From NCBI RefSeq assembly GCF_025742995.1, contig NZ_JAOVQM010000001.1, positions 62,001-126,000 of the forward strand: a stretch of 64,000 nucleotides of DNA, read 5' to 3'. Below are positions 247 through 62,877 of this stretch, one piece after another. The notes beneath the pieces are model-generated. The model did no database searches and was not told where the DNA came from. It worked only from the letters and a program-made list of their open reading frames with translations. This DNA comes from Paracholeplasma manati. GTDB lineage: Bacteria > Bacillota_I > Bacilli_A > Acholeplasmatales > UBA5453. Each line of letters opens with the position of its first letter. Positions within the stretch are counted from its first letter, which is position 1. Made by a program: the position numbers and the translations under genes.

Positions 247-1728
247 TTAAAATCCTTTGTATAAAAGCTCTAAATGCATCCCGATATGGGCATATAACAT
301 ATCGCTATAGGTTTGTGCTTCATCGCGCCATAAAGCGAATAATTGGTTTCTAAATACAAATTCACCTTGTTCATTTTTATGATTTAAGATGAACCCATAA
401 GTGATGTGGATGAGTTGTCTAGCATCGTTGTTATGGAACAAGTTTGGTAGTTCTTCATCCTTTAAAGTTTCTAATGCTGGTATACGGTTTAAATCGGTCG
501 TTACATGATAGAACTTTTGAGCTTCACCAAACATGCTGATGGCGTAGGCGTGGATGTCGCGATAAAGCTTCGGTGCTTTCGCGGAAACGACACGCATCGC
601 TTCAAGCCAGTTGGTGCCAGCGGTTTTCACATGGAAATGACCTCTGGTGTGTTTACCAATCAATGTAAAGATTGAGAATTTATCTGACCCTGAGTGAATC
701 GATAACTTATAACCAAAATGTCTCGCAATCGCAGCGTGTACCATGAGTTCGACTTCAAATTGCTTGATATCGCCTACATAGTCAATCCCTTTTTGGAATT
801 CACCACAGAATCGTGGTGCCAACGTATCGAGTTTAACCCCTCTGAGTTTCAATTCGTTCGCAACAAAATAGTGTTGTGCCGGGGTGGTTGGTGTAGAGGT
901 TTCATCGATGGATAGCTCGAAGTTCGCTTCGGCTTTTTGATCGATAAAGAATGTTTGATAAATTTTGGCTGCGAATTCGATGGCTTTTCCATAAACCAAG
1001 ACACAACGGTTCAATTCATTTTCAGAAAACTCTACCACACTGTGTTCAATTTGAATTGGGTGACCTAAATAACGCTTTTTAAGCATGTCATCGATTTGAA
1101 CTTCACGACGAACTTGTTCATCGGTCATGTGATTTACATCATTTCGAATATAGTCACTCGCGTCCAAAGTAATCATTGTAAACCCTAAAGATAACGCGTA
1201 CTTAATGTCTTCTGGTTTCTTTAAATGGTCACCATCAGCACCAAAGCCTCTGGTGAATCCCACTTTAAACGCACCAAATGACGCAGCATCTAACACGTCC
1301 TCATAGGTTCTATGGGTTAATGTGAGTTCTCTGATGGATTGTTGAGCAAAAATTGGATAAGCATCGTATTGTTTAAACACACGCGCATGTCCTGGGGTTG
1401 CTAGACCCAAACGGTCACCTAAACCAAAACTTCTTTGTTTATTTAAAACAGGGATGGGTTTGGTAAATGGGAACAATCTTCTCAGTACTTGTCCATTTTC
1501 AAAGGTGAGTGGTGCGATGACCACAGGTACTCCTGAAACATCATCAATTTGACCCTTAAATTGGTTTGCTAATCTGCCATAAGCTACCAATTCATCTGCG
1601 TGTGGTGCTGCTTGCATCCAAACGTAAGTATCTTCGACTTGTTGAATGGATTTAGGATATACCTTTGATCCATAGACACCTTGAATGCCCGATAATGCCT
1701 TTAAAAAATCCGTGTTTTTGTTTGACAT
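247..1728 (-). CDS. uxaE: Tagaturonate epimerase family protein (UxaE)
   Basis: A 493-residue soluble protein that I recognise as the UxaE family, which interconverts D-tagaturonate and D-fructuronate in galacturonate catabolism. Visible support is the glycine-rich stretch FGLGDRLGLATPGH near residue 100, the TIM-barrel-like alternation, and candidate metal or acid/base residues in LSIDETSTPTTPAQHY and in KLSIHSGSDKFS. Full length for the family. Start ATG at 1728 follows AGGAGAGAAC. It heads a transcript that continues into the sugar kinase at 225. A promoter-like TTTACA/TAAAAT pair with a palindrome over the -35 lies upstream. Galacturonate use fits the pectin methylesterase at 22-26 kb. 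The family name comes from sequence memory; an older annotation could call it a hypothetical sugar isomerase. Confidence 0.8.
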   Translation of the reverse strand: MSNKNTDFLKALSGIQGVYGSKVYPKSIQQVEDTYVWMQAAPHADELVAYGRLANQFKGQIDDVSGVPVVIAPLTFENGQVLRRLFPFTKPIPVLNKQRSFGLGDRLGLATPGHARVFKQYDAYPIFAQQSIRELTLTHRTYEDVLDAASFGAFKVGFTRGFGADGDHLKKPEDIKYALSLGFTMITLDASDYIRNDVNHMTDEQVRREVQIDDMLKKRYLGHPIQIEHSVVEFSENELNRCVLVYGKAIEFAAKIYQTFFIDQKAEANFELSIDETSTPTTPAQHYFVANELKLRGVKLDTLAPRFCGEFQKGIDYVGDIKQFEVELMVHAAIARHFGYKLSIHSGSDKFSIFTLIGKHTRGHFHVKTAGTNWLEAMRVVSAKAPKLYRDIHAYAISMFGEAQKFYHVTTDLNRIPALETLKDEELPNLFHNNDARQLIHITYGFILNHKNEQGEFVFRNQLFALWRDEAQTYSDMLYAHIGMHLELLYKGF

Positions 1729-1917: not shown

Positions 1918-2709
1918 TTACTGTTTGAATATGAATGTGTTGATAGCGTGTGTAAACCCATCTTCTTTAAAGGTTTTGGTCACATAAGACGCGTTTTCTT
2001 TTAAGGTAGTTTCGCCATCGCCCATCGCTACACCGATGCCAGCAATTTGAACCATCGATAAGTCATTTTCTTGATCACCAATCGACAAAACTTCGGTTAA
2101 AGGTATCCCTAAATGTTCACATAGAATATTTAAAGCTCTGCCTTTACTCGCGATTTTATTGCCCACATCGATAAATGAAGCTTGAGAAGATAAAACATAA
2201 ACGTCATCGATTCGAGATAATGTTGTTCTTAAGGTATTAAACTTATGTTCATTGGGTTCAATGATCAGGATTTTTAACAACCCTTGCTTTAAATAAGGTT
2301 CAATCTGTTCGGATTCAACCACCACAGATTCAAAGGTACCAATGCGCGATTCTAACAATGCTTTCGCGCTTTGGTTTGAAACGATGACTTGTGTGGTGTA
2401 TAAAAGATAATCGGTTTGATGTTGGTTTAATAGGGCTAAAACTCGATTAGCCACCGTGGGTTCGATGACATCTTGATGTAATACTTTTTGTTGATTAAAA
2501 TCATAGATCATCGCACCGTTGGTACAAATAATCGGCCATTTAATGTTGAGCGTTTTAGCCATTGATTTAACCGCGTCTTTATGACGTCCAGTCGCAAGGG
2601 TGAATACATAGCCTTCGTTTTGAAGGCGTAGTATGGTTTGTTTGGTTTTGTCGGACATCTCTTTTTTATTGACCAATGTCCCATCTAAATCAGCAATAAT
2701 CATTTTCAT
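1918..2709 (-). CDS. Cof-type HAD-IIB sugar-phosphate phosphatase
   Basis: 263 residues, typical for the Cof/YidA group of haloacid dehalogenase-like phosphatases, which remove phosphate from small sugar phosphates or nucleotides. Motif I is DLDGTLVNKKE (residues 7-17) with the nucleophile and acid aspartates. Motif II is the threonine in FTLATGR. The conserved lysine is in ASKGRALN, and motif III is GDQENDLSMVQIAG, which binds magnesium. The cap region between about residues 80 and 185 is the usual C2 type. Start ATG at 2709 follows GGAGTG. It is 93 bases downstream of the GH2 gene and has a TATAAT-like box at 2732-2737, so it may have its own promoter as well as read-through from the sugar operon. 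Substrate unknown. Confidence 0.85.
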   Translation of the reverse strand: MKMIIADLDGTLVNKKEMSDKTKQTILRLQNEGYVFTLATGRHKDAVKSMAKTLNIKWPIICTNGAMIYDFNQQKVLHQDVIEPTVANRVLALLNQHQTDYLLYTTQVIVSNQSAKALLESRIGTFESVVVESEQIEPYLKQGLLKILIIEPNEHKFNTLRTTLSRIDDVYVLSSQASFIDVGNKIASKGRALNILCEHLGIPLTEVLSIGDQENDLSMVQIAGIGVAMGDGETTLKENASYVTKTFKEDGFTHAINTFIFKQ

Positions 2710-2802
2710 AATTTATCAGCACTCCAGTGCCATTATACACTATTATTATTCTTAAACTTATGTTTGACTATTCATAATTCAAATTTACTTCAGGTATTCT
2801 AC

Positions 2803-5052
2803 TTATTTTTTAATTTTCTGTAATGCTTTGTTTAAGGCTACCATAAGCGCTTTTGGCAACAACTTGGAATTATAACTCGTGATCATTTTAATACTCATAC
2901 TACGAATGTTTGCTAAAGTTGTTTTCTCATCCATAGAATGAAAATATTGATTAAATACTTGTTTTGCTTCTGGATGATTTATTACTTCATGAATGGTATC
3001 ATAAATACTAAAATAGTCCGGTTTTATGTTTTCCAATGCATCCTCATTTGAAACCGTATCTATCCAATCTGAAGGATTAATGCCAAACACATTATTGACT
3101 GTATTTTGTTTTTGATAAGTGTATTGTAAAACTGGTTGATCAACAGTAATCCATTCAACAGATTCCACCAAACCATTGGCTTTGACAATGATTTCATTTT
3201 TACCAAGCTCTAGGTGAATCGGTGCAGTGAAGACTACATCATCTTTGAATATCTGACTGATGGATACCCCATTATGACTTACCTGTATATTGTGTTGATT
3301 AGAATAAACTTTTAAAATAATGTCTCTTTGATGTCGATACTTAAATCGTTTAGAAGTGATGTGTAGCATTGGGGTTTTAAGCCATTTTGCTTGATAAAAA
3401 TAGTAAGCATCTTTTAACACCTTGTGGTCAAAAGTTACTAATCCTTTAAAGTTTTTTCCTTTAAACTCACCACTTTCTCGAAAATCAGAAGCGAAGTCGT
3501 ACATGTTCCAGACGAATGTTCCCCATATAAAATCATATTTGCTAAATATGCTGTAAGATTTCTCGTGCCATATAGCCTGATACTCTTCCGTATAATCCTG
3601 CATTTGTGGTTGATCAGAATGGTACTCTACGATTGCTTCAACACCATACTCACTAATGGCTAATAACTCATTTGGTTTTGTATGTTCATAATGAGACAAC
3701 CATGAATCGAAGTCTTCAACTTTACCCATATACCAACCAAAGTATAAGTTATATCCAAGTAAATCAGTATGTGTATGAATCGAGTCAATGATTGGTTGTC
3801 TTGCCAATTGAGCTTGCACAGTTAAACGATTTTGATCTAGCGTTTTAGCTAAATTTACCAATGATATAACCACGTTTTCAACACCATCATTTTTTCCAAA
3901 AGCTGTGATTTCATTTTGAATACCCCAGATGACAATTGATGAGTGATTCATATTTTGAAGTATAAGTTCTTTGAGTTGTTGGTGCGCATTCAAACCCAAT
4001 GTATCGGTTTTTGATCCTCTTGAAATAAATGGGATTTCTGCCCAAACCATGAAACCATAACGATCACATAATTCATAAAAATAATCATGATGCTGATAAT
4101 GTGCTAATCGAATAGCATTTGCACCTAATTTGGAGATTTGCTTAATATCCTCTTCCATCATGGATTTGGTTAAGCAATTACCATAGCCTTGAATGTCCTG
4201 ATGTCTTGAAACACCATTTAATCTTATTTTTTTCCCATTTAGGAATAGACCATTTTCAGTTTTTAAAAGCTTTCTAAACCCTATGGCAATCTCTCTACTA
4301 TCTAAAATCATATTATTCTTGATTAAACTCACAGTTAAAGTATACAAATACGGGTCATCAATTCCCTGCCATAAATGCGGATTTTCTAAAACTAATGAAA
4401 CTTCTGATATATTAAGACCCTTCACAGGAAGCTGTCTTAAATCACTTAAAACGGTTTTGGATTTCGCATCATTTAATCGGATTAAAACATCAACTGTTTG
4501 TGAGATATCCCGGTTAAATATCATTGATTTTACTCGAAATCTAGTATATTGAGATGTAACATCATCTTGAAACACATATACGCCATCGGAGGCTTCATCC
4601 ATTAGATAAAAAGCAATTGTGTTGGTTTGAATGAGAAACACATCTCTATATAAGCCACCATAAAATGTAAAATCTGCCATTAACGGGAATACTTCTTCAT
4701 GATGAGAATTATCCACACTCACTAAAATATGATTTTCACCGATTAAAGCTAAACCACTGATATCGAATCTAAATTTTGAGTATCCACCCTTATGTGTACC
4801 TAATAAAATCCCATTAAAATACACCGTAGAAACGCTATTGGCACCTTCAAACTCTAAGTATAGAGCGCCTGAAATATCACTGATACGCAACGATTTTCGA
4901 TAATGACAGACGCTTCTATAGTAGTCACTTCCACCATCTTGTCCGTCAATATTATTCCATGTATGTGGTAATGATATTTTTGTCCAAGTAGGTTGATTTT
5001 CAATGTCATCTTTCGTAAAGTACCAATCATTGTTGATGTTGATTTTTTTCAT
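2803..5052 (-). CDS. Glycoside hydrolase family 2 (beta-galactosidase/beta-glucuronidase type)
   Basis: About 749 residues, cytoplasmic, no signal peptide. The order is the sugar-binding jelly-roll domain (about 20-165), an Ig-like domain (about 170-260), the TIM barrel (about 265-565) and a C-terminal extension. The acid/base glutamate is in VIWGIQNE (near residue 380) and the nucleophile glutamate in LLAISEYG (near 467); both are intact. I start at ATG 5052 (MKKININNDWYF) because AAGGA lies 8 bases upstream; a longer frame to 5097 exists but has no ribosome binding site. It is the last gene of the seven-gene sugar operon, after a perfect hairpin at 5086-5110. Family 2 covers beta-galactosidase, glucuronidase, mannosidase and galacturonidase activities, and the sequence alone does not choose between them. 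Confidence 0.85.
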   Translation of the reverse strand: MKKININNDWYFTKDDIENQPTWTKISLPHTWNNIDGQDGGSDYYRSVCHYRKSLRISDISGALYLEFEGANSVSTVYFNGILLGTHKGGYSKFRFDISGLALIGENHILVSVDNSHHEEVFPLMADFTFYGGLYRDVFLIQTNTIAFYLMDEASDGVYVFQDDVTSQYTRFRVKSMIFNRDISQTVDVLIRLNDAKSKTVLSDLRQLPVKGLNISEVSLVLENPHLWQGIDDPYLYTLTVSLIKNNMILDSREIAIGFRKLLKTENGLFLNGKKIRLNGVSRHQDIQGYGNCLTKSMMEEDIKQISKLGANAIRLAHYQHHDYFYELCDRYGFMVWAEIPFISRGSKTDTLGLNAHQQLKELILQNMNHSSIVIWGIQNEITAFGKNDGVENVVISLVNLAKTLDQNRLTVQAQLARQPIIDSIHTHTDLLGYNLYFGWYMGKVEDFDSWLSHYEHTKPNELLAISEYGVEAIVEYHSDQPQMQDYTEEYQAIWHEKSYSIFSKYDFIWGTFVWNMYDFASDFRESGEFKGKNFKGLVTFDHKVLKDAYYFYQAKWLKTPMLHITSKRFKYRHQRDIILKVYSNQHNIQVSHNGVSISQIFKDDVVFTAPIHLELGKNEIIVKANGLVESVEWITVDQPVLQYTYQKQNTVNNVFGINPSDWIDTVSNEDALENIKPDYFSIYDTIHEVINHPEAKQVFNQYFHSMDEKTTLANIRSMSIKMITSYNSKLLPKALMVALNKALQKIKK

Positions 5053-18826: not shown

Positions 18827-19339
18827 ATGGGCTTCTTTGAAACCATTCGTTACACATTGATTAAAAAGGATAAAAACATCGAAATTAGACAATACGATGT
18901 CTTCCTACTCGCATCCACCAAAACGCTCTCTAATAAGCAATTCGATTCGGGTTTTATGAATGTGTTTAATTATATCTCAGGCGATAACCATACCTCTGAA
19001 AAAATATCGATGACCACCCCAGTGGTATCTTATGAAGAGGATGATCAATTGGTCACGGGGTTTTATGTGCCTTCCAAGTACGATAAGACAAACGTTCCAA
19101 AACCGACCAGTGAACATGTCTTCATCCAAGAAAACGAAGCTTCGATATACGCAGTGATTCGTTTCAGTGGGGGTTGGCGTGAAAAGAATTTTAAGGTTGC
19201 TGAAGAGAGACTTATGGATTATTTGAATCAAAACCATTATGAAATCCTGTCAAATCGAATCATCTTCAGGTATCAACCACCGTTCATACCAGGGTTCTTA
19301 AGACGAAATGAAATCGCCTTTAAAATCAAATACACCTAA
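18827..19339 (+). CDS. SOUL haem-binding family protein
   Basis: 170 residues, matching SOUL/HEBP proteins: the opening YTLIKKDKNIEIRQYDVFLLA, the middle EKISMTTPVVSY, and the ending IFRYQPPFIPGFLRRNEIAFKI (shown in parts here) are family landmarks. SOUL proteins bind haem or other tetrapyrroles in animals; the bacterial ones are largely uncharacterised and the haem-ligand histidine of mouse HEBP is not conserved across the family. Start ATG at 18827 follows GGGGATG. Stands alone with its own terminator. Confidence 0.85.
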   Translation: MGFFETIRYTLIKKDKNIEIRQYDVFLLASTKTLSNKQFDSGFMNVFNYISGDNHTSEKISMTTPVVSYEEDDQLVTGFYVPSKYDKTNVPKPTSEHVFIQENEASIYAVIRFSGGWREKNFKVAEERLMDYLNQNHYEILSNRIIFRYQPPFIPGFLRRNEIAFKIKYT

Positions 19340-20009: not shown

Positions 20010-20294
20010 TTTGTCTCCTTTATAAATAGAACATGCTCGTATCTAAAGATTTAGAATGAGCATGGTTCACTTGAGTTGCTTCTATAGCACTTATACCTAT
20101 TGTAATAGAAGTTACTTTATGGTGTCAAGGTTATCAAAATCATTATGATTAGGTCTATAATTAGTCAAAATCAGTATTCATTTCATTGAAAAATCCATTC
20201 ACTATTTTTTAATATATTTTTAAGTGCAATTTATTTTGAAACCGTAATATTGCGTGATATGATAACGGTACAAAAGGTAGAAAAGGAGATTTTT
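20010..20294. other. Intergenic region upstream of the heliorhodopsin gene
   Basis: About 285 AT-rich bases between divergent genes. Apart from the promoter at 20236-20263 I see no gene or clear regulatory repeat. Confidence 0.5.
20236..20263 (+). promoter_or_regulatory. Heliorhodopsin promoter
   Basis: TTGAAA (20236-20241) and TATGAT (20258-20263) are 16 bases apart, about 30 bases before the start codon. This is a good housekeeping-type promoter, so the gene is likely expressed on its own. Confidence 0.7.
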
Positions 20295-21122
20295 ATGTCA
20301 GAAAAAGCGTTAAAAAGAGACCCACTTGCGTTTGATAGTCTAATTCGCTTCAACAAGATCATGGGTTCGGTTCACCTTATTCAAGGCGTCTTGATGATGC
20401 TATTTGCATTTTTAGTTTATCCTAATTTGGATGGCACCGGTACACAAACATTTACAATTCCTGTGATTGGGAATTACTTAAACTTCGTTGAAGGTCAAGG
20501 TTTGGTCTTAACCCCTACAGAAACCTTATTCGAATTACCATTCTTACCATTAACAGCTAGCTTCTTACTCATTTCTGCATTGTTCCATTTCATCATTGCT
20601 TTCCCTTATAAAGACAAATACGTCGCTGACTTAAAAGTCGGTATCAACAAACTCAGATGGTACGAATATGCCCTATCTTCTTCATTGATGATCGTATTGA
20701 TCTCTTCATTATTTGGTGTCAGAGACGTTGCCGTATTCGCGTTGATTGCTCTCGCAAATGCTGCGATGAACTTATTCGGTTTAGACATGGAATTACTCAA
20801 TGCGGGCGAATCCAAAGCTGGTAAAAAAGTCAATTGGTTACCATTTATTTTCGGTTCAATCATCGGTTTAGCCCCTTGGGTAGCGATTGCGTTCTATATT
20901 GGAGTTAACCCTAATTTAGCCAATGTACCCGGATTTGTTTGGGCCATCTTAGTCACTTACTTTGTTGCGTTCAACACATTCCCAGTCAACATGGTATTAC
21001 AATACTTAGGTAAAGGTAAATTCAAAAACTATCTTTATGGTGAAAGAGGTTATATCATTCTTTCCTTAGTAGCGAAGACCATTTTAACTTGGTTAGTGCT
21101 ATTTGGTGCGTTCCAACCTTAA
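20295..21122 (+). CDS. Heliorhodopsin (type-1-related retinal protein of inverted topology)
   Basis: 275 residues with seven hydrophobic helices. The helix C signature RWYEYALSSSLMI (121-133) is diagnostic of heliorhodopsins; E124 corresponds to the Schiff-base counter-ion (E107 of the studied protein 48C12). In helix G, K261 in SLVAKTILTW is the retinal-binding lysine, with S257 four residues before it as in 48C12 (S237/K241). H27 in helix A and H98 in helix B match the conserved histidine pair. Heliorhodopsins sit with the N-terminus inside, show slow photocycles and do not behave as standard pumps; their roles are debated. Start ATG 20295 follows AAAGGAGA, not the upstream ATG at 20250. 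It has its own promoter and terminator, so it is monocistronic. No retinal-forming dioxygenase is in the window. Confidence 0.93.
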   Translation: MSEKALKRDPLAFDSLIRFNKIMGSVHLIQGVLMMLFAFLVYPNLDGTGTQTFTIPVIGNYLNFVEGQGLVLTPTETLFELPFLPLTASFLLISALFHFIIAFPYKDKYVADLKVGINKLRWYEYALSSSLMIVLISSLFGVRDVAVFALIALANAAMNLFGLDMELLNAGESKAGKKVNWLPFIFGSIIGLAPWVAIAFYIGVNPNLANVPGFVWAILVTYFVAFNTFPVNMVLQYLGKGKFKNYLYGERGYIILSLVAKTILTWLVLFGAFQP

Positions 21123-21135: not shown

Positions 21136-21164
21136 AAAGTCATTCTTTATGAATGGCTTTTTTT
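21136..21164 (+). terminator. Terminator of the heliorhodopsin gene
   Basis: AAAGTCATTC pairs with GAATGGCTTT (one G-T pair) around a 5-base loop, followed by TTTT. Confidence 0.8.
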
Positions 21165-22214: not shown

Positions 22215-22245
22215 AGGTGCCCTTTCAAAAGGCACCTCTTTTTTT
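22215..22245. terminator. Terminator behind the aldo/keto reductase and pectinesterase genes
   Basis: AGGTGCC (22215-22221) pairs with GGCACCT (22231-22237), then CTTTTTTT on the plus strand. On the minus strand a shorter TTTT follows, so it probably serves both converging genes. Confidence 0.85.
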
Positions 22246-25200
22246 ACGCTATAGATTGTAAGTAAGTTAACGCGTTTTGGTAGAGCCATTCGCTACTAAA
22301 GGTAACCAAACCATTGGTTTCATCGAATACAACGGCTTTATCAATCGCACTGGAAACGAGTTCAGACGATAAGGTTTTACCATTGGTAGTGGTTGGTAAT
22401 AGTTGTTGATTAACATCCCTGTTTTCAAACTCATAGAATCGTGCATCTTGAGGTAAGTTGCCAGACATTTCTGTCCACCCTCTACTGCTGATGTGTTCAC
22501 CAAATGTATTTTGAATGTACATGATGGCTGCACTCTTATCCCATGGTCTGCCTAAGTCTACGGAGCCCACTGGAACGCCTTGTTCAAAGGTAAATGTGTT
22601 GTTATAGAACACATAACCAAAACTGACGAGAAGTGTATTTTGAGTGTTATAACCCTTGTTGGTTGAGATGACACCGGTTGAACGTGCCAAGGAACGAATC
22701 TCAGAATTTTCAAAGAAGGCTGGACCACCATTACCAAAGATGAAATCAACCACACCTTCAATATACACATCTAGATAATATTGACGACCTGATTTTGCAT
22801 AGAGGGTATCTTGATAACCTTTGAAGGAGACTTGATAGAAAATGACTTGGTCAGCTTCATTCACCAAGGCGACCCCTTGTTTATCTGCGATGGTCGATTG
22901 ATTGAAATTGAAATCATTTTGGAATGTGATGTTCTTCGCCATAAAGCCTGTGGCGGATGATTTGATTGAAACGGTAGCTGAACCTTGGGTACCCCAAGTT
23001 GAGCCATTCGGTTGTTGTGTACCAGATGCTGCGTCATAGGTAATGATCGTAGTTGCTTCATCTTCACCAATCATAATCAAACTTGGCACAGTAATCGTGA
23101 CTTTTTCACGATAAGTGCCTGCCATCACATAAAGATGTTTCAAAGTTGTGGTTGGATAGTTTTGATTCACTAAATATTGTAAGGCAGATTTAACCGTTTT
23201 AAACATCATATGATTATTGATGATTTCACTGTCATACCCTAAGAAACTTTGATCGACATAAATCGAAATCGCTGTTGGAATAGATACATCTAGCGCATGG
23301 ACATAGATATTGATATGAACCACATCAAAGGTCTTGTATGTGATGCTGATTTGATAATCACCAGGGGTATTGAAATCGACTTGTGAAATATCCATGGTGT
23401 ATTCATTGGCGTTAAGCTTCAAGAATGTCCCATCGGTTAATACAGCTTTAACCACCAAACCATCGGTATTGAGACTTGAACCCACAGCGTATGTTTGTTT
23501 CATCAATAAGTCATCTGCTAATACGTGGGTGACCGAAACAACTTTCACTGAGAATACCTTGGTTTCATTGTTATACGTGATGGTGATATCATACTCACCA
23601 TCTTGGGTGTTATCGAATAGGGTTGAATCGATTTGATATAAAGCGGACTCTAATAACGTACTAGAACCATCCGAGAAGGTAGCGTAAACAGCTAGATTGG
23701 TTAAATCCAAGGTTTCACCTACCAAATAATACTTTTTGACTTGTGATGTTGAAAGTGAGAATCCAGTTTCAACCACAGGGCCAGTATCATCTGATTGTCT
23801 TGCAATAGAGCCATTTAAGTATTTAAAGAAGGTTGCGTTAAATCCACTTTGGTCAAACCAGGCTTGCGTAATTTCAGCGTTGGTTAACCCAGTACCTTCA
23901 GGCATCGCAATCGGTGCTGTACCGACCATAAATACGGTGGTTTCGCTGGCGTAGTATAAATTGGTTAAGGTCGCTGTTGAACCACTTGGTAAGTTACCTA
24001 CACCGATTTTGTTGGTGTTGGTCCCTGAGGTTTGTGTGATATCAGATATAAACACTTGATCAGCGATGATGGTTGAACCTGAAATGTTGGTACCTAAAAT
24101 AGAACCGACATTCTTACCAGAAGAAACGCTGCCTTTAACCACAATTTGTCTGACGGTTAATGTAATACCTGCTGCGTTTAAACGGCCCATAATCGCACCT
24201 GCCGCTTGGTTAGGTGCAGCCACTTTAGAATCAAAGTAAACATTTTCAACATCGATGGTAACGGCTTTTCTTGCGGCACCAATCAACCCACCCACATAGG
24301 AACTACCTTCAATCCAGTGATTTTCATCATTGATGACGGTAATATTTCGAATGATGATGGTGGTTTCGTTAGCGTCATTGATGACATCCCCAAACAATAA
24401 AGCTGCGTAAGACCCGGCATGAATAACCGATACATTGAAGAATGAGATATTTTCAAATCGAGATCCACCTTGAGCAAATGCTGAGATGAATGCAGAGGAT
24501 TCGGAGGAACCACCACCATTGTGGATGGAATCCACGAAGTTGATGTTCTTAACAACACCGCCATTGAGTACTTCTTTGAATAAGAAGCCCATCTTATTGC
24601 CGGAGGCGTTGATGACTGCACCACGAATGGTATATCCATGGCCATCTAAAATACCATCAAATGTTTTCGCACTACCGGTTAACGTGGTGCCAGTCATATC
24701 GATGTCATTCATCAAATGCACTTGGCCTGTTGCGCCATTGGTAATGAGGTTTAAGACATCTTCGGGTGTATATAATAAGGTACCCGTAGGTAGATCAGGA
24801 TCTGTTTCGAACCTACCATACAATTCATAGTTACCCGTAGAACCGAGTGGGATGGATTCTACCAATGTACCACCTTCAGGTTGTGTAAACCACCCAACAA
24901 AGATCATACCCGTCATTTCTATGGTTCTAAAGACTGGTTCTGATTCGATGGTGTAAGTGTCATCCCCCATGGTTAAAATGGTTGCGTCTACAGGTTTCCA
25001 ATAACTGATGGTATATTCGACGATTTCAAATACAGGTTTTAAAGTAATGTCTTGATCGATGATGGTTTGTGAAAAATCAAAGGCGACTTGATTGAGCTGC
25101 CACTCAACAAAGGCATAACCTAATTTTTCAGGATCGTTTTCTGGTTTAACCACGAGGTTCCCTTCAGTCACTTGACTGGTTGATAGGGTTGAACCATCTG

Positions 25201-25792
25201 CAGTTTCAAATGTGACCGTATATACTTCAGGGATTGCTTCCCATTTAGCATATAAGGTGATATTGGCGTTTACGATATCGGTATTAAATACCCATGGGGT
25301 GGTTAAACTTTCTTCTTTAAACCAACCCATAAAAGTATATCCTGTTTTGGTTGGATCTAATGGGGCATTTACTTTCGCACCTTCATTAACCGTTTGTGGG
25401 TTCACGGATGAACCTCCATTGGCATTAAAGGTCAGGGTAAATGTAGGGATTGGTAAGGCTTTAACCGTAACGGTGTAACTCAAGTTTTTACTAAAGTTGG
25501 TGCGTGTCACAGACGCAGTCAATGTGACTTCAATATCCCCTGTGGAATGACTTGGTCTTGTGACCACACCACTGGTGGATAGTGTTGCAGGTTGGCTGGA
25601 TGCCCAAACAATATTGAAGGTTTCTCCCTCAACTTCAACTGTCGTAGGCAAAGTGATATTCTCTGTAACTTCACTCGGAATATTGAGAATATTCTGTTGA
25701 ATCAAAGCATCGTAATCCACAGATGGATTTTCACATGCGAGTAAAATCGTTCCTAAAAATAGAAACACGAATAGCGTTACAATCTTCTTCAC
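22244..25792 (-). CDS. Surface lipoprotein pectin methylesterase with InlB-type and Ig-like repeats
   Basis: About 1182 residues. The lipobox LLAC puts the lipidated cysteine at residue 20. Then come a bacterial Ig-like/atrophied repeat (about 30-110), three to four Listeria-Bacteroides (InlB B-type, GYxFxGW...LYAKW) repeats (about 115-330), a right-handed beta-helix-like region rich in G-x-I repeats (about 335-640), two Ig-like modules (about 665-850), and the pectin methylesterase domain (about 865-1160). In that last domain QDTLYAKSGRQ, VDFIFGNG and LGRPW supply the two catalytic aspartates and the arginine. It would remove methyl groups from pectin at the cell surface, making it accessible to lyases. 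I start at GTG 25792 because AAAGGAG lies 10 bases upstream and the signal peptide begins there. A strong promoter with a cre-like site precedes it. Confidence 0.88.
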   Translation of the reverse strand: MKKIVTLFVFLFLGTILLACENPSVDYDALIQQNILNIPSEVTENITLPTTVEVEGETFNIVWASSQPATLSTSGVVTRPSHSTGDIEVTLTASVTRTNFSKNLSYTVTVKALPIPTFTLTFNANGGSSVNPQTVNEGAKVNAPLDPTKTGYTFMGWFKEESLTTPWVFNTDIVNANITLYAKWEAIPEVYTVTFETADGSTLSTSQVTEGNLVVKPENDPEKLGYAFVEWQLNQVAFDFSQTIIDQDITLKPVFEIVEYTISYWKPVDATILTMGDDTYTIESEPVFRTIEMTGMIFVGWFTQPEGGTLVESIPLGSTGNYELYGRFETDPDLPTGTLLYTPEDVLNLITNGATGQVHLMNDIDMTGTTLTGSAKTFDGILDGHGYTIRGAVINASGNKMGFLFKEVLNGGVVKNINFVDSIHNGGGSSESSAFISAFAQGGSRFENISFFNVSVIHAGSYAALLFGDVINDANETTIIIRNITVINDENHWIEGSSYVGGLIGAARKAVTIDVENVYFDSKVAAPNQAAGAIMGRLNAAGITLTVRQIVVKGSVSSGKNVGSILGTNISGSTIIADQVFISDITQTSGTNTNKIGVGNLPSGSTATLTNLYYASETTVFMVGTAPIAMPEGTGLTNAEITQAWFDQSGFNATFFKYLNGSIARQSDDTGPVVETGFSLSTSQVKKYYLVGETLDLTNLAVYATFSDGSSTLLESALYQIDSTLFDNTQDGEYDITITYNNETKVFSVKVVSVTHVLADDLLMKQTYAVGSSLNTDGLVVKAVLTDGTFLKLNANEYTMDISQVDFNTPGDYQISITYKTFDVVHINIYVHALDVSIPTAISIYVDQSFLGYDSEIINNHMMFKTVKSALQYLVNQNYPTTTLKHLYVMAGTYREKVTITVPSLIMIGEDEATTIITYDAASGTQQPNGSTWGTQGSATVSIKSSATGFMAKNITFQNDFNFNQSTIADKQGVALVNEADQVIFYQVSFKGYQDTLYAKSGRQYYLDVYIEGVVDFIFGNGGPAFFENSEIRSLARSTGVISTNKGYNTQNTLLVSFGYVFYNNTFTFEQGVPVGSVDLGRPWDKSAAIMYIQNTFGEHISSRGWTEMSGNLPQDARFYEFENRDVNQQLLPTTTNGKTLSSELVSSAIDKAVVFDETNGLVTFSSEWLYQNALTYLQSIA

Positions 25793-25815
25793 GAATACAT
25801 TTCTCCTTTTTAAAA

Positions 25816-25863
25816 TGAAAGCGCTTGTATCTTTCAATATAATGATATTTTTACATATGTCAA
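25816..25863 (-). promoter_or_regulatory. Pectinesterase promoter with cre-like CcpA site at the start of transcription
   Basis: On the minus strand TTGACA (25858-25863), 16 bases, TATATT (25836-25841). TACAAGCGCTTTCA (25816-25829) matches the cre consensus at 12 of 14 positions and lies about where transcription begins, the classical repressing position. Confidence 0.65.
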
Positions 25864-29822: not shown

Positions 29823-31376
29823 TTAGCCGATGGTTTCTTTATGAACCATATTACAATGAGGACAAATGACTTTACCCGCCGGGTTAATCTTGGTGATGTT
29901 TCTAAAATACATCAAAGATTCTACTTGGCGTTCATAATACCATTCATCCTGATCAACGGTCATGTTACCAAATAATGGGTTTTTACGACGGTGTGGTGAA
30001 TCTGTATAAAAGAAGGATTGTTTGGTGGTAGGACAGGTATCTGTTTTGATTTGTGTCATACAATCACCACATTGGTAGTAATCATGACGCTTATTCTTTT
30101 CGAGTTTTCCCCCACAAAATGGACAGGTGGTGCGCTCTGTATCCGCGTGAATCATACCTCTTAAAATGATTTGTTGAAGTCGTCTAAATGAGTCAATATC
30201 GGTCATACTGATATATACATCTTCACGCTTTAAATAGTCTTCATCGAATGGGTCTACAACAATCACTTCGTGCAGTCTTCTTCTCATCTTTTGGGTGCGA
30301 ATGAATTCTTCATCGGTTTGACTGTCGACAATCATGACACGATACGCTTGATCTTTTTTAAAATACAATAAAACCGATTCATTGTTGTTGTTTTGAATAT
30401 TGAGTTTCCAATCTTTAAATGTAAAGTTCACGTTTAATTCATTCAGCTTCATTTTGGTTTTTGAATCCAGTTCAAAATTAAAATGACCCGCTGCGAAAAT
30501 GGCTAATAGTTGAACGTATAACATGTAAGTTCTACGTAACCAAACTTCATCGAGTGGTTTGTCCTCTTCTTTTTTTACGATTGGACTATTCAATAAATAC
30601 TTATAGGTTTTGTAGACTTGACGGTAATCCTTTTGCATGAGGAAGATGTTGGTTTTCTTAATCGATAGATTTGGGTTTCGATGATTGTTCTTTTTATAAA
30701 CAGGTTTACTTAAGCGCGGTTGAATGACCCTTGTCACAGAACCTAGCTCATTGAGCATCTCTTTAGATAGATTAAAATACTGTGAGAAATCACGGATATA
30801 ACCCGTATGAAGTTTCCCTAACGCTAGGAAGTATTTAAGGTGATTGGCTTTTTCTAGTAAGTTAAACTCCATGATGTCTGAAGCGTAAATGATCGCGTTT
30901 AAGATACGTCTATTACGATTCGAGAATCGGATCACTTCATCGATGTAGTTACAAAACACGATGTTCTCATAAATCGCGTAATCATCTTCATAAATACGGG
31001 TCAGTAGCTTTCTCGGTTTAACCCCACTGTTGGTAAGATTAGACACATGTTGGCTGTGGTTTGCTAAATGTAATAAAGTGTTTTGATTGATGATTCGCGC
31101 ATTTTCAACAGGCAAAACATCATCGGTATCTTTCAATACGATGATGGGTTTGTTGAAGATGCGTTTGGATGCAGGCATCGATTTTTTTATCACTTGAATG
31201 GTGTTTTTTAATTGATCAAAATCAAACTCTGGTTCAATTGAAAATAACGTCATATCATGGACGACATAATAATCAAATTCAATGTATGAGAGCTGTGGGT
31301 GCTTAACGACGAATTTTTCAATCCCTGCTAACAAGGATTCTATACGTCTATAAGCATCTAATTTTTGCTTATCCAT
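29823..31376 (-). CDS. DUF2357-like partner protein with C-terminal zinc ribbon
   Basis: 517 residues, soluble. The middle section (RIYEDDYAIYENIVFCNYIDEVIRF, about 125-150) resembles the DUF2357 proteins that accompany McrB-like ATPases. Near the C-terminus is a treble CxxC zinc ribbon: CPFCGGKL plus CGDCMTQI (about 417-440), a CPTT, and a last CPHC (about 508). I see no convincing PD-(D/E)xK nuclease site, although a region of VLLYFKKDQAYRVMIVDS (about 345-362) could be a remnant. It starts six bases after the AAA gene, without its own ribosome site, so translation is coupled. Likely the adaptor or effector of that membrane ATPase. Confidence 0.65.
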   Translation of the reverse strand: MDKQKLDAYRRIESLLAGIEKFVVKHPQLSYIEFDYYVVHDMTLFSIEPEFDFDQLKNTIQVIKKSMPASKRIFNKPIIVLKDTDDVLPVENARIINQNTLLHLANHSQHVSNLTNSGVKPRKLLTRIYEDDYAIYENIVFCNYIDEVIRFSNRNRRILNAIIYASDIMEFNLLEKANHLKYFLALGKLHTGYIRDFSQYFNLSKEMLNELGSVTRVIQPRLSKPVYKKNNHRNPNLSIKKTNIFLMQKDYRQVYKTYKYLLNSPIVKKEEDKPLDEVWLRRTYMLYVQLLAIFAAGHFNFELDSKTKMKLNELNVNFTFKDWKLNIQNNNNESVLLYFKKDQAYRVMIVDSQTDEEFIRTQKMRRRLHEVIVVDPFDEDYLKREDVYISMTDIDSFRRLQQIILRGMIHADTERTTCPFCGGKLEKNKRHDYYQCGDCMTQIKTDTCPTTKQSFFYTDSPHRRKNPLFGNMTVDQDEWYYERQVESLMYFRNITKINPAGKVICPHCNMVHKETIG

Positions 31377-31381
31377 AGGAA

Positions 31382-34087
31382 TTAGTCGTTATCTAAGCGG
31401 CGAATGAAGGCTGCGCATTGGTGCAATTTGAGCTTCGTAAATTCGAGTTCGAGTTTTTCTTTGTCGTCCAAAGTCTTCGTTTCGAGTTTCGCAACCACTT
31501 TGCTTAATAAAATCTTTTCAACCGCTTCGGATTCGACGTCTTCATCGGCGAAGCAGGCTTTATAAATATTCACGAATTCTTCGATTTGTTTTAAGATACG
31601 GTTACCAAAGGAAATGTTGAATGGCGCTAACAATGTTTCCACGCTCTTGATCAGTTCAGAATTCTCAGCGTCAAAATTGCCTTGTTTTTTCGCATCCACA
31701 AACAATTGTTGGATGGTTTGATAATCATAGAACTGTTTCGACATTGGCTCTGAATAGTTTCTAACCTTCGGTGCACGTTTGGTGAAGTTCATCGTATGTG
31801 CACGGTCATACACTTTATCAGATATCACGAAGGTGGATTCATCGCGGTTCGCGGTACCGATGAACCAAACGTTCTTCGGAACCTTGAGGGTGTTGCCATC
31901 ATTTAATGCCAAATATTCGTTTTCTTGTTCTGCTTCTTTACGGGTTAAACGGATATTGATGAGTTTGATTTCACGTTGGTTTTCTTCATTTTCCATCAAG
32001 GATAAGAAGTCTGAGAAGTAATACTCAATACGGGATAGGTTCATTTCATCTAATAGAATGAAGGTAAATACTTCAGGGTTTAAAGCGGCTTTATAAAGTG
32101 CTAAGGTAAACTTCTTAGGGGTATATTTCATCGAGAATTCGTTGTAATAACCGAGGAGTTCGTTTTTGTCTTTCCATGAGGATTCAACTTCGATGATTTC
32201 ACAATTACCAAACACCGCTTCAGAGAAGATTTTCGGCAAACTGGTCTTACCAGTCCCTGACATCCCTTGAAGGATCGATAGCTTTGAAGCCCCCAATCCC
32301 GCAACAAATGTCGCGATATCTTCTGGGGTATAGGATAGATGTAATCTGGAGTTTCTCGCGTAATCGACAACAAAATTAACCAATTGATTGAGACTGGTAA
32401 AATTGGTTTTTAAGCCTTTACGTTTTTCTAAGTCTGCATCAAACAATGGTTTCTTCGAATCCAAATCGGTAAATGCTGGACACGGATCAAATGGTTGATA
32501 GGCTTCTTCTACTGGTTCATCATTGGATGGTTTGAATTCATCTGTAGGTTGATTAGTATTGAGTGGTAAGGTATCTTCAGCACCTGGGGCTAAACTAACC
32601 GACAATGGGGCTTCACGGTCGAACGCTTTACGGAAAAACATCCAAGTGAGGACTGCGATCGAACCAAACAATACGACAATCGCGTTTGTACCGATGTTAT
32701 ACTCATATTCTAATCCTGTAGGTAAACTGATACCGTAGAATTCAAAGATATCAAGCATCACCGCTTGGTTGATTTCTTGAGCGATTTGGAAATAATACCC
32801 AGCAATCGAAATGATGAACACAAAGAACACATTGACGATGGCGGAGAGTTTAACAATGGCGTTAAATTGTTTGAAATTAGATAAGTAACTACTGATGGTG
32901 ATGACCAAAGTCAACCCGATCGATATGAGCATAACAACCAACACATAAGCAACCAAGCGATAACCTGGGTCTAACACTGGGTAATCCAATAAAATCTTTA
33001 ACCCAGTCAAATTCACGTTGTATTCAAAGTTGCCAAACGTGATTTGCATCACAATGATTGGCATCAATAACAGCGATGCAGTCACTGCAGTGAGTAACAA
33101 TACATATAATAAAGGTTCAATCTTCGCGTATCGGAACTTCAATACTTTATACGACATCGGATGATCGATGTGGTATTTACCTTTAAGAATCGCAAATCCA
33201 AAGATGACAAATACCATCATCGCTACCGGAATGAATGCGAAAGTGATGACTTCATTGCCTTCTAGTGTGTAATAGATATTTAAAGCTAGCCCAGCAATGA
33301 AGAAAATAACCGTTGAGATAAAGATAAAGTTGATGAGGTTTTTTGACTTTTGGATGAATCGTTCTTGATCAAAGAAATAGTGTGAGATGATGTCTGAAAA
33401 ATATAAGAATATCCCTAGTAATAGGGTGAAATTCGCTAAGAAATAGCCGACAATCTCAAGATTGGTATCACCAAAGAACAGTGCTCTAATGATGATTGCG
33501 TGATAATCTGGTGACACATCCGTTAAAGTATACAAAGGCACAACAAAGGTTGTCATAAAGACTAGGATCGATAAGACATTGATGACTAAAACCGTTCTTA
33601 AAATGGATTTGCCTACCGGTTTAACTTCTACTGTATCCTCTTTAATTGATGTTGATCCAACCAATAATCGTTTTCGATATACCATTAAAATGACCAACCC
33701 AATAATAAATACCAAATTTACAATCATTAAAATCAAGGCGATAGGTGCTAACAACCCATTGATGGTTTGAAATACGATGAATGCACTGGAAAAACCGAGT
33801 AAAAGGAACAACGCTGGCAACATCCCCCATTGTGTCTTACGAAGGATACCAACGATCGATAATACGATGGATGTTAGGGATGCATAATAGAGAATCACCA
33901 TAACAAAACCAAAAATGACCAATACCCCGCCATCAGCAATTCTGCTTGCTAATGAAAAGAAATCATCGGTTTCATACGGTGATAAGAGCGGCGTGGATAG
34001 TGCCCATAAATTAATGAGTGCAATCACAGACAATAAGGCTGTGATGATGATACCGATAAACCATGGTTTTTTAATCAGTTGTTTCAT
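31382..34087 (-). CDS. Multi-pass membrane protein fused to a McrB-like AAA+ ATPase
   Basis: 901 residues. About twelve hydrophobic helices fill residues 10-490, a linker follows, then an AAA+ domain (about 575-880). Walker A is QGMSGTGKTSL (near 605), Walker B FILLDEMNLSRIEYYFSDFLS (near 681), and sensor FIGTANRDES (near 744), in the place of the McrB signature MNTxDR. This is the pattern of McrB/dynein-related AAA proteins with DUF2357 partners, normally soluble. The fused membrane half is unusual. The operon continues with the zinc-ribbon protein (gap 5) and a CAT-like enzyme (gap 11). A membrane-associated anti-phage or stress system is possible, but no defence role is shown. Start ATG at 34087 follows CGAGG. 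Confidence 0.75.
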   Translation of the reverse strand: MKQLIKKPWFIGIIITALLSVIALINLWALSTPLLSPYETDDFFSLASRIADGGVLVIFGFVMVILYYASLTSIVLSIVGILRKTQWGMLPALFLLLGFSSAFIVFQTINGLLAPIALILMIVNLVFIIGLVILMVYRKRLLVGSTSIKEDTVEVKPVGKSILRTVLVINVLSILVFMTTFVVPLYTLTDVSPDYHAIIIRALFFGDTNLEIVGYFLANFTLLLGIFLYFSDIISHYFFDQERFIQKSKNLINFIFISTVIFFIAGLALNIYYTLEGNEVITFAFIPVAMMVFVIFGFAILKGKYHIDHPMSYKVLKFRYAKIEPLLYVLLLTAVTASLLLMPIIVMQITFGNFEYNVNLTGLKILLDYPVLDPGYRLVAYVLVVMLISIGLTLVITISSYLSNFKQFNAIVKLSAIVNVFFVFIISIAGYYFQIAQEINQAVMLDIFEFYGISLPTGLEYEYNIGTNAIVVLFGSIAVLTWMFFRKAFDREAPLSVSLAPGAEDTLPLNTNQPTDEFKPSNDEPVEEAYQPFDPCPAFTDLDSKKPLFDADLEKRKGLKTNFTSLNQLVNFVVDYARNSRLHLSYTPEDIATFVAGLGASKLSILQGMSGTGKTSLPKIFSEAVFGNCEIIEVESSWKDKNELLGYYNEFSMKYTPKKFTLALYKAALNPEVFTFILLDEMNLSRIEYYFSDFLSLMENEENQREIKLINIRLTRKEAEQENEYLALNDGNTLKVPKNVWFIGTANRDESTFVISDKVYDRAHTMNFTKRAPKVRNYSEPMSKQFYDYQTIQQLFVDAKKQGNFDAENSELIKSVETLLAPFNISFGNRILKQIEEFVNIYKACFADEDVESEAVEKILLSKVVAKLETKTLDDKEKLELEFTKLKLHQCAAFIRRLDND

Positions 34088-55466: not shown

Positions 55467-56918
55467 TTATAAGTATTTTTTTAGTATCAGAGCTGACTGA
55501 TAAATCGTTGGTAACCCACTGCCTGGGTGTGTACCGCCACCAACTAAGTATAAATGAGAGATATCCTCAAATTGATTTTGAGGTCTTCGATTCAACATTT
55601 GAGGCAGGTTATGTGCCAAATTAAATACTGCCCCACGATAGACATTATAATCATTGGCCCAACCGTTTGGATCAATCATTTTCATTACTTGGATATGATT
55701 TCTAAGGTCGATACCATGTTTCGATTCGATTAAGTCGATGGTTTGTTCTTTCAGGATTTCTTTGTATACAGACCAATCTTGTTCAGCCGATAAGTTCGGT
55801 ACAGGTACCAAAACAAATAGACTTGTATGACCTTTAGGGGCGTATGAATCATCATTTAGTCCTGGATTATGGACATACACACTGAAATCATCTGTGAATT
55901 GATTACCTGTCAATCCTTTTAAATAGGCTTCATAATCTTTTGAGAAAATGATTTCATGGTGTGGAAAATCATAGGTGGTATCTAAACCGATGTATAACAT
56001 AAATGTCGATACACTGAATCTCTTCTTTTCAATCTTTTCTGGGGTATATTTCTTCAAGTGTTCTGGTTTGATTAAATGATTCATCGCGTACGCAAAATCC
56101 GCATTGATGATGATGTCATCAAAGAGGATGGCTTCGCCGTTGACTCTTAACCCTTTCGCAGCCCCTTTATCCACAATGATTTCTTCTACTGGGCTATTTA
56201 AGTGGATGTGCCCGCCATTCTTTTCAATCAATTCAGCCATTTTATGGTTGATTTGATTGAGACCCCCTTTAACATGATATAAACCCAATGCGTGTTCTAA
56301 GTAAGGCAATATCGTAAAAATGGATGGGGCTTGATAGGATGCCATACCCAAGTACTTCGCTTGGAACGATAACGAATGGATGAAATTATGGTTTTTATTG
56401 AAGGTGGATAAATGTGTAAACACCGATTGAAATGGGTGTAAATAAGGTAAAGCTCTCAATACATCTGGTCTCAGAAAATGAAAGTAATTCGGGAAGGGTT
56501 TTTTTAAAATGGATGATATGGCATTTAACTTCTTTTCTTGTGCCTTCAACCAGTTTAGATAGCTTTTCCCCATGCCAGGTTGGTATTTATCATACATACT
56601 CGCATTCTCATTGGGGTCTTTCGACATGTGAAACGTAACGTCATTGAACATCAATGTATATAACTCTTCTAAACGGATGATGTCTAATTCTTTGTGTAAG
56701 TCATACCCAGCCGATTGAAAGACTTCTTCTAAGATTTCTAGATACATCAAGAAGGTTGGACCCACATCAAAATGATAATCCCCTAAAGAGAGTCGTTTTG
56801 AACGACCACCCACTTGGTTGTCTTTTTCAAATATGTGGAGTTCATAGCCTTTTTTAGATAAGACCATCCCCGCGGCTAAACCCCCAGGTCCAGCCCCAAT
56901 AATCGCTATTTTTTTCAT
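55467..56918 (-). CDS. Carotenoid-type (CrtI/CrtN) FAD-dependent desaturase
   Basis: 483 residues. The FAD-binding motif is IIGAGPGGLAAGMVLSKKG (residues 4-22) and the family region is RSKRLSLGDYHFDVGPTF. The C-terminal dinucleotide segment GGGTHPGSGLPTIYQSALI is the CrtI/CrtN end signature. It would introduce double bonds in phytoene or diapophytoene; carotenoids are known in Acholeplasma. No crtB/crtM (synthase) lies nearby. The start overlaps the stop of the ABC1 kinase gene by four bases (ATGA), so the two are coupled. Which substrate chain length applies is not visible. Confidence 0.82.
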   Translation of the reverse strand: MKKIAIIGAGPGGLAAGMVLSKKGYELHIFEKDNQVGGRSKRLSLGDYHFDVGPTFLMYLEILEEVFQSAGYDLHKELDIIRLEELYTLMFNDVTFHMSKDPNENASMYDKYQPGMGKSYLNWLKAQEKKLNAISSILKKPFPNYFHFLRPDVLRALPYLHPFQSVFTHLSTFNKNHNFIHSLSFQAKYLGMASYQAPSIFTILPYLEHALGLYHVKGGLNQINHKMAELIEKNGGHIHLNSPVEEIIVDKGAAKGLRVNGEAILFDDIIINADFAYAMNHLIKPEHLKKYTPEKIEKKRFSVSTFMLYIGLDTTYDFPHHEIIFSKDYEAYLKGLTGNQFTDDFSVYVHNPGLNDDSYAPKGHTSLFVLVPVPNLSAEQDWSVYKEILKEQTIDLIESKHGIDLRNHIQVMKMIDPNGWANDYNVYRGAVFNLAHNLPQMLNRRPQNQFEDISHLYLVGGGTHPGSGLPTIYQSALILKKYL

Positions 56919-58138
56919 GCGTTGATCGCCTCATTTGCTTTGTGAAATTCTTCTAAGAAACGTCTCATTTCCATCATGAGTACCGTATCTGGTGCACCTT
57001 TTAATACCATGCCATCCAAATACATCATACTCTTGATGATTGGGAACATCCCTTTTTCAAAGACCATGCCTGAATTGACCCCAAGCTTGATGGTTTCCAT
57101 CATTTTTCTGGTCAAGGAAACATCAGATACCGACTTGCCTTCAAAGTCTTTGTATAAATCCAATAGTTTTACGTAATAAGCATCATAAGTTTTTCCATGG
57201 ATTTCTTTAGAAGCCATATGGTTTAAAGCCAGTGCACAACCTGGGAAGTCATAATAAGCGAGTTTTTCCATGAACTCAAATAAGCCCATTTGGATCTTTT
57301 TACCAACTTCTGAAATCGCGCCAGTATCGATGAAATAGAAATCATTGCCTTTTTTGATGAGATTGCCTGGATGTAAATCCCCATGGAAAGTACCTACAAT
57401 GAAAATATAGAACCCATGAATATGGAATATTTCTAAGATGTCTTCAAAAGGCATCGATTTTTCTTCTAATAGATCATCGACGGTTTTCCCTTCAATAAAC
57501 TCAGAAACCAACACATGTTCATTCGATAAGTCTTTATAAATTTTAGGAAATTTTAAACGAGATAAATCAAACTTGTCTTTGTTCGCTTCATAAATGCCTT
57601 TGAGCACTTCACCATGGCTGATTTCGTTTCTTAAGTCTAACTCGGCTAAGGTGTATTCTTCAATGTGCTCTAAAATGCCTACTGGGTCTGCCACTTTAGC
57701 CAATTTAGGATAGAAGAAAATGATGAACTTGATGAATCGTCTGAGTGAACGGACATCTTTTTCAAATTTTTTCTTGAAGTCTTTTTTGATGAATTTGATG
57801 ACCACTTCATCACCATTAAATAAGGTAGCACGGTGGACTTGTCCAACCGAGGCACTACCAATCGGGGTTTCTTCAATTGTTTTGAACTGTTTGAGCCAAT
57901 CTTCATTGGTATATTGTTTGAGTAAAACCTTAAAATCCTCCCCTTGAATTGGGGTGGTTCGAGTATAAAGTTTCGCTAGATGGGTGCAGGTCGCTTCATT
58001 TAAGAAGTCAATTCGAAGTGCGAAGGTTTGGGCAATCTTCACAGCCAAAAGACCTTGATTTTGAATGAAGTCTAAGTCCGGTAGTTTCTTTTTTGAAAAT
58101 ATTTGTTTGAATAATCGGATAAACATGATCCAACGCAT
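56915..58138 (-). CDS. ABC1/UbiB-family atypical kinase, KxGQ variant
   Basis: About 407 residues. The ABC1 landmarks are the ATP lysine in EVVIKFIKK, the catalytic HGDLHPGNL and the DTG metal motif in FIDTGAISEV, with a degenerate alanine loop (IGSASVGQVHRA). The normally invariant KxGQ motif is KIAQ here (VKIAQTFALR), a glycine-to-alanine change. UbiB/ADCK proteins act in isoprenoid lipid (quinone) biology; Acholeplasma lacks typical quinone genes, so coupling to the desaturase suggests a carotenoid or polyprenyl role. The start is uncertain (ATG 58138 with AAAGGA, or ATG 58126). Confidence 0.8.
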   Translation of the reverse strand: MRWIMFIRLFKQIFSKKKLPDLDFIQNQGLLAVKIAQTFALRIDFLNEATCTHLAKLYTRTTPIQGEDFKVLLKQYTNEDWLKQFKTIEETPIGSASVGQVHRATLFNGDEVVIKFIKKDFKKKFEKDVRSLRRFIKFIIFFYPKLAKVADPVGILEHIEEYTLAELDLRNEISHGEVLKGIYEANKDKFDLSRLKFPKIYKDLSNEHVLVSEFIEGKTVDDLLEEKSMPFEDILEIFHIHGFYIFIVGTFHGDLHPGNLIKKGNDFYFIDTGAISEVGKKIQMGLFEFMEKLAYYDFPGCALALNHMASKEIHGKTYDAYYVKLLDLYKDFEGKSVSDVSLTRKMMETIKLGVNSGMVFEKGMFPIIKSMMYLDGMVLKGAPDTVLMMEMRRFLEEFHKANEAINA

Positions 58139-58225
58139 AACATCACTGTCCTTTATGTTTATTATATAACAAAGTGGTTTTTTAGTCCCTAGATGATACA
58201 CAATAAAGGGAAATTTAAGATATTG

Positions 58226-61720: not shown

Positions 61721-62877
61721 AGTTCATCTAATATGAAATTTAAGAATCTTTCAAGACCGGCTTCTAGTTGGTCTTTTGAACAGGCTAAATTCATCCGAAC
61801 AAAATCTTTCAAATCTGGATCAAACTTGTTTCCATCAGATAAGGTGATTCCGTAGTCCATCACCTTCTTGGTGATATAGATGGAATCTTTCTTTAAGAAT
61901 GACATATCTAACCAAGCCAAATAAGTGCCTTCTGCTTTGGTGATCTTCATTTGTGGGACATGTAGTTTAAAGAACGCATATAGACGTTTGAAGTTTTGTT
62001 CTATGTGGTGGTTTTGAGCATCGACCCAGTCATCACATTCTGTATATGCAACTTGACAAGCAAGGGTTGCGAAGAGGTTTGGAGTACAGTTATGGGAGAC
62101 GCGCAATTCATGATGAATGGCTTCTCTCATCTTCGGGTTTCTAATTACGATATTCGATAAATGTAATCCTGCAATATTGAAGGTTTTATTGGGAGAAGTG
62201 CAGACCATGAGTTGATCATAATCATCTAAATAATGTCCAAGCGATGTAAATTCATGTCCTTTAAGGATAATGTCAGCGTGAATTTCATCTGAAACTAAGG
62301 TCACCTTGTATTTCTTACATAGATTCACGACTTGTTCGATTTCATGTTTGGTCCACACACGTCCAACTGGGTTGTGTGGGTTACATAAAATAAACATCTT
62401 AGCCCCTTGTTTAAAGGCTTCTTCTAAGCCAAAGAAATCCATTGTGTAATGACCATTGATATTGACTAGTTTATTATCGATGAGTTCACGGTGGTTGTCG
62501 TGGATGACATCGAAAAATCTTGGATAAACTGGTGTTTGAATAACGACCTTATCCTGTTTTCGAGTTAAGCCTTTAACAGCTAAATACAGCGCAGCAACCA
62601 CGCCTGGTGCAGGAAAAAACTCACCTTTTTGAACCGTAAAATGGTATCTTCGAGAAAACCAATTGGCGACGGCTTTTTCATAGGATTCATCAATATAGTT
62701 ATAACCGAAAGCCCCATGTTCAACGCGCTTTTTTAACGCGTCAATGATGGGTTTTGGTGACTTATAGTCTGAATCTGCGATAGAAAAAGGTAAAAAATCA
62801 TCCTCAAAAGGACCTCTTTCTAAGTCCCATTTTCGAGCATTGGTGTAACTGCGATCAAGCGATTTAAATGCGTTCAT
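61711..62877 (-). CDS. PatB/MalY-type PLP-dependent C-S lyase or aminotransferase
   Basis: 388 residues of fold-type I PLP enzymes. The Schiff-base lysine is in CTSPNKTFNIAGLHLSN (near 229), the MalY/PatB form. The cofactor site includes FILCNPHNPVGRVW and LVSDEIHADIIL. The MalY group cleaves cystathionine or other C-S bonds and in some species also controls transcription. Start ATG at 62877 follows GAGGTATAT. Single gene with its own terminator. Confidence 0.85.
   Translation of the reverse strand: MNAFKSLDRSYTNARKWDLERGPFEDDFLPFSIADSDYKSPKPIIDALKKRVEHGAFGYNYIDESYEKAVANWFSRRYHFTVQKGEFFPAPGVVAALYLAVKGLTRKQDKVVIQTPVYPRFFDVIHDNHRELIDNKLVNINGHYTMDFFGLEEAFKQGAKMFILCNPHNPVGRVWTKHEIEQVVNLCKKYKVTLVSDEIHADIILKGHEFTSLGHYLDDYDQLMVCTSPNKTFNIAGLHLSNIVIRNPKMREAIHHELRVSHNCTPNLFATLACQVAYTECDDWVDAQNHHIEQNFKRLYAFFKLHVPQMKITKAEGTYLAWLDMSFLKKDSIYITKKVMDYGITLSDGNKFDPDLKDFVRMNLACSKDQLEAGLERFLNFILDELQA

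Follow-up and report, generated by a model that had tools for sequence, protein, structure and literature searches.

Heliorhodopsins (HeRs) are light-sensing membrane proteins whose biological role is still debated. Bacteria of the Acholeplasma type have small genomes, and some of them can be cultured. The HeR of Trichococcus flocculiformis (TfHeR) binds a class II photolyase through residues R162/K227, and repair is raised about 3-fold and extended to green light (PMC9769723). Gene neighbourhoods that join a HeR with a photolyase or with DUF2177 are already known (PMC9769723, PMC11109279). Here we analyzed a HeR gene in the genome of Paracholeplasma manati (1.87 Mb, 28 contigs, 99% complete). 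"The window" denotes the whole 64,000-nucleotide stretch of DNA that was analyzed (NZ_JAOVQM010000001.1, positions 62,001 to 126,000). The host belongs to the Acholeplasmatales, an order characterised as peptidoglycan-deficient in which some members are predicted to have thin walls (PMC10868615), in agreement with the wall-less lineage that an earlier note on this DNA had proposed. No paper dealing with both heliorhodopsin and Tenericutes, Acholeplasma or Mycoplasmatota was found in the open-access literature searched; HeR in this wall-less group is little discussed, at least, and the genomes are public.

Identity and predicted fold

The window gene (Table 1) encodes a genuine heliorhodopsin (type-3 rhodopsin). 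Its frame is translated without interruption into 275 amino acids, and the protein was matched by the Pfam profile PF18761 (277.9 bits, E 8e-83) and by the NCBIfam model NF038020 (258 bits, cut-off 100). Residues H27, H98, R121, E124, S257 and K261 are all present and, counted from the alignment, correspond to H23, H80, R104, E107, S237 and K241 of 48C12. Among them are the SxxxK motif of helix 7 (S257-LVA-K261) and the counter-ion glutamate of helix 3 (R121-WY-E124). Every residue named in the earlier note has its 48C12 equivalent.

An AlphaFold2 model (pLDDT 89, pTM 0.86) contains the seven membrane helices noted before, together with an extracellular beta region. When this model was compared with the PDB by Foldseek, the ten top fold matches were all HeRs (TM 0.79-0.84 by query), with E values of 1e-17 to 1e-13 versus about 1e-4 for the top type-1 rhodopsins. 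The profile search and the structure prediction that had been suggested as checks thus both returned a heliorhodopsin; two curated models, matches to the sequences of solved HeRs and the predicted fold agree. Because the segments taken as cytoplasmic hold 12 lysine and arginine residues, versus 1 in those taken as external, a cytoplasmic N-terminus is predicted, which fits the inverted topology of HeRs.

Table 1. Features of the heliorhodopsin locus and related genes, in window coordinates
Feature	Position	Strand	Details	Basis
SOUL heme-binding protein	18827-19339		two genes upstream of the window HeR	profile search
Promoter-like site	20236..20263	+	TTGAAA-16-TATGAT, extended -10 TG	consensus match only
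Ribosome-binding site	20284..20290	+	aaaggag	sequence
Heliorhodopsin CDS	20295..21122	+	ATG 20295, stop codon 21120-21122, 275 aa; K261, E124, S257, H27, H98	
Intrinsic-terminator-like hairpin, then T-run	21136..21160	+		consensus match only
CrtI-family phytoene desaturase	55467..56918	-		TIGR02734 crtI_fam, 384 bits, cut-off 238

The promoter-like and terminator-like sites of the gene lie in the right places and are statistically little above chance (7 promoter-like matches in the HeR region versus 4.4 +/- 2.5 by chance, and 2 terminator-like matches versus 0.8 +/- 0.9). The claim that the gene has its own promoter and terminator is therefore retained as far as placement goes and weakened as to significance; the HeR is probably a stand-alone transcription unit.

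Distribution and phylogeny

HeRs had been thought rare in low-GC cells. This view does not hold for the class, in which PF18761 matched 72 of 395 sampled genomes (70 over the cut-off), some with three copies. By protein comparison and trees, three sets of these HeRs are distinguished: A, which is large, C, which is divergent, and B, to which the window HeR belongs. Support for set B was 100/99 in a first tree of 69 rows without the window row and 100/100 in a second tree that included it; two PDB reference rows were joined by long branches in the trees and were excluded from interpretation. Set B comprises HeRs of uncultured Acholeplasma, 'Candidatus Izimaplasma', Tenericutes bacterium MO-XQ and Syntrophomonadaceae metagenome-assembled genomes (MAGs), with 78-93% identity to the window HeR. 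One member, L061, is a MORN-HeR fusion whose HeR part is 84% identical to the window HeR. Since fusions of this kind were reported in PMC8612252, the window HeR is a relative, lacking the MORN part, of a HeR branch already published; the profile search of the window protein found no MORN repeats, PF18761 being the sole match.

Identities of 78-93% across families raised the idea of recent horizontal transfer within set B, which is not supported because silent sites are near saturation. Older transfer may have occurred, since branching within the set is mostly unresolved and mixes families. Separately, three genomes of 0.7-1.0 Mb (G235, G091 and G332; loci L038, L042, L051-L052) each carry three different HeRs of about 43-52% mutual identity; in G235 and G091, two of the three are separated by a few genes.

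An origin of the window HeR from a phage or a plasmid was also considered and set aside: none of 50,697 phage records matched it, and two plasmid HeRs are distant. On the plasmid side, a 10.5-kb mobilizable Lactococcus petauri plasmid carries a HeR near an IS6 transposase gene (NZ_CP141705.1, L117, 5592-6368), and a 180-kb Chloroflexota plasmid from a cold seep carries another (CP069395.1, L118, 5025-5789). On the viral side, a single 5.8-kb viral contig (IMGVR_UViG_3300036987_000418, L115) has a set-A-like HeR at 2387-3175, 58% identical to the window HeR, in the head module of a tailed phage, flanked by the genes for the terminase large subunit and the portal. This HeR has its own ribosome-binding site and hairpin terminator, like a phage cargo gene, and none of the PHROG families matches it. 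Among 158 related loci, the terminase-portal gap varies widely in width and often holds extra sequence; L115 is the only locus with a HeR in it. This contig may be a chimeric assembly.

Selection, maintenance and loss

Compared with its two closest relatives, the window HeR has a dN of 0.08 and a dS of about 1.8-2.0 (dN/dS about 0.04); in comparisons with the others, silent sites are at or near saturation. In a comparison of G091 with G235, the set A and set B HeRs are 93% and 92% identical, far better conserved than most surrounding genes (55-77%). The window HeR is intact, under strong purifying selection and maintained; as had been surmised, it is not passenger DNA. It belongs to a branch that evolves very slowly and that relatives of mycoplasmas share.

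HeR genes have been damaged or lost elsewhere in the order. Interrupted copies are found in G158 of the same genus and in G323, G089 and G336 of the same order. In Acholeplasma oculi (L073, 10001-10195), the remnant joins a match to the N-terminal 52 residues directly to one to the C-terminal 16, a large internal deletion. HeR is missing from two of the three other genomes of the genus, and three genomes of the genus have a photolyase and lack an intact HeR. No HeR remnant was found in G130 or G144 near their deoxynucleoside kinase or their counterparts of the gene pair at window 29823-34087, the two anchors used; in L071, a HeR lies upstream of the same gene pair in the same orientation. These broken and absent copies, together with the failure to find a retinal-making enzyme (see below), would suit a reading of the window HeR as a relic that is decaying and now without function, which we consider very improbable in view of its full-length frame, its complete key residues and its dN/dS of 0.04.

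Genomic neighbourhood and light-related genes

By profile search, the direct neighbours of the window HeR encode a SOUL heme-binding protein, a deoxynucleoside kinase and an aldo/keto reductase, none of which recurs within 5 genes of the other HeRs in the 48 loci inspected. The SOUL family also occurs near set-C HeRs in L037, L039, L043 and L052, and its presence near these and the window HeR may be chance. Further off, window 22244-25837 encodes what we take to be a large, apparently secreted protein whose C-terminal part resembles pectinesterases, and window 247-1728 presumably a tagaturonate-epimerase-like protein; pectin use is possible.

The HeR had been described as lying beside no other light-related gene. 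This is right for its direct neighbours and not for the window, where a CrtI-family desaturase is encoded 34 kb away. This light-protection gene may have a link to the HeR. An ABC1/UbiB-type kinase gene adjoins it with an overlap of a few bases (window 55467-58201). For the genome as a whole, the description fails: it has a class II-type photolyase and, elsewhere, a cluster of tocopherol-cyclase-like, CrtI-type, phytoene/squalene synthase and DUF92 genes. The photolyase (C1:260,675-262,066) adjoins DUF2177, a DAK2-DegV gene and DUF1295, and among NCBIfam models it scores highest with phr2, a class II family (461 bits, under that model's cut-off of 550). As it lies about 178 kb from the HeR (C1:82,295), the two do not form a HeR-photolyase operon.

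Within the class, photolyase was found in 35 of 70 genomes with HeR versus 9 of 325 others, and by genus in 19 of 40 with HeR versus 3 of 152 without, shared ancestry and habitat being still contained in both comparisons. About half of the HeR genomes gave no match to PF03441, a profile that scores class II photolyases poorly. All 10 sampled set-B genomes have a photolyase, and most set-B HeRs are not linked to it. In several relatives, HeR lies beside photolyase, carotenoid and tocopherol-cyclase-like genes. Among the 48 inspected loci, which were not randomly chosen, a photolyase lies within 5 genes of HeR in 14, a tocopherol-cyclase-like gene in 12, and DUF2177 and DUF1295 are each near HeR in 5.

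From family, fold, selection and co-occurrence, we propose that the window HeR may be a light-regulated helper of DNA repair or light stress, most likely with the class II-type CPD photolyase of the host as a partner in trans. Of the readings considered this is the most likely, and we give it slightly less than an even chance. Against this partnership speak the absence of linkage between the window HeR and a photolyase or other light gene, the mostly unlinked HeRs of set B, the HeR genomes in which PF03441 found no match, and the three genomes of the genus that have a photolyase and no intact HeR.

Phytoene synthase (24 of 70 HeR genomes versus 11 of 325 others in the class) and the nearby tocopherol-cyclase-like genes would also be expected if HeR served in general photoprotection of the membrane or against oxidative stress, acting with carotenoid and tocopherol-cyclase-like genes and with no dedicated protein partner. 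The SOUL and aldo/keto reductase genes that flank the window HeR point the same way, and a role against light-induced oxidative damage has been proposed (PMC8612252). We regard such a role as distinctly unlikely, for phytoene synthase is absent from most HeR genomes, and each HeR shown to work so far has a protein partner on which it acts (PMC9529153, PMC9769723, PMC11109279) or transports protons, as in a giant virus (PMC9448325).

A partner other than photolyase is suggested by different neighbours. The HeRs of four f14 genomes and the broken G158 HeR adjoin an ABC-2-type transporter cassette, accompanied by a TetR regulator in several of these loci. The OcHeR of Ornithinimicrobium upregulates the exporter OmrDE (PMC11109279), MORN-HeRs are located near histidine kinases (PMC8612252), and L061 in the window's own subclade is a MORN fusion. 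The window HeR could accordingly be a light sensor that acts on an ABC exporter, or on a signalling protein that it contacts via its N-terminus. Such a sensor seems to us rather unlikely, although somewhat less so than partner-free photoprotection, as the window HeR has neither such a cassette or kinase directly beside it nor MORN repeats.

Retinal source and proposed mechanism

No BCD/Blh enzyme scored over the cut-off in any of the 395 genomes of the class, in a search that had no positive control, as no control genome matched; RPE65-type oxygenases were likewise found in 0 of 395, with controls matching. The host has phytoene/squalene synthase and desaturases without a convincing lycopene cyclase, and PF18916 found none in its genome. 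A PF05834 match (24.8 bits) was examined as a candidate and judged not to be a cyclase, its frame being a generic FAD-oxidoreductase beside a glycosidase-like gene. Because no retinal-forming or lycopene-cyclising enzyme was found, retinal is probably scavenged from the environment; it may also be made by an as yet undescribed enzyme.

Help to the host photolyase could then work as follows: 1) K261 would bind all-trans retinal from the surroundings; 2) visible light would isomerise it; 3) the positively charged loops K106-K114, K174-K178 and K240-K244 on the cytoplasmic side would change in response and pass the change to a soluble partner, without ion transport; and 4) this partner would most likely be the distant class II-type CPD photolyase. 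To the observed family, residues, integrity, selection, subclade and co-occurrence, this scheme adds a putative retinal binding, photocycle, partner and effect.

More broadly, and more tentatively than for the repair role itself, wall-less Acholeplasma-like bacteria and their kin might share a conserved light-response module whose parts (a slowly evolving HeR, a class II-type photolyase, tocopherol-cyclase-like, DUF2177, DUF1295 and carotenoid genes) cooperate even when unlinked, with scavenged retinal and no member making its own; we hold this module to be possible and somewhat improbable.

Comparison with described heliorhodopsins

The interest of this HeR lies in a natural comparison set and in the source of retinal rather than in any new mechanism. 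In some species of these bacteria HeR is intact, in near relatives it is interrupted or missing, and linkage to photolyase is frequent; they thereby provide natural comparison pairs for the role of HeR in DNA repair and for the origin of retinal without a known synthesis enzyme.

Compared with the solved HeRs 48C12 and that of a Thermoplasmatales archaeon (6su3, 6is6), the window HeR is alike in fold (TM 0.79-0.84 by query) and in retinal-site residues, whereas it shares 36-39% identity with them in fold alignments and comes from another lineage. With the MORN-heliorhodopsins of Syntrophomonadaceae, known from haloalkaline sediment MAGs (PMC8612252), it shares a HeR subclade; it differs from them in host lineage and in having no MORN repeats. 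It differs from TfHeR (PMC9769723) in that the photolyase of its genome is not adjacent to the HeR, and resembles it in belonging to the same protein family and in being encoded in a genome that also has a class II-type photolyase.
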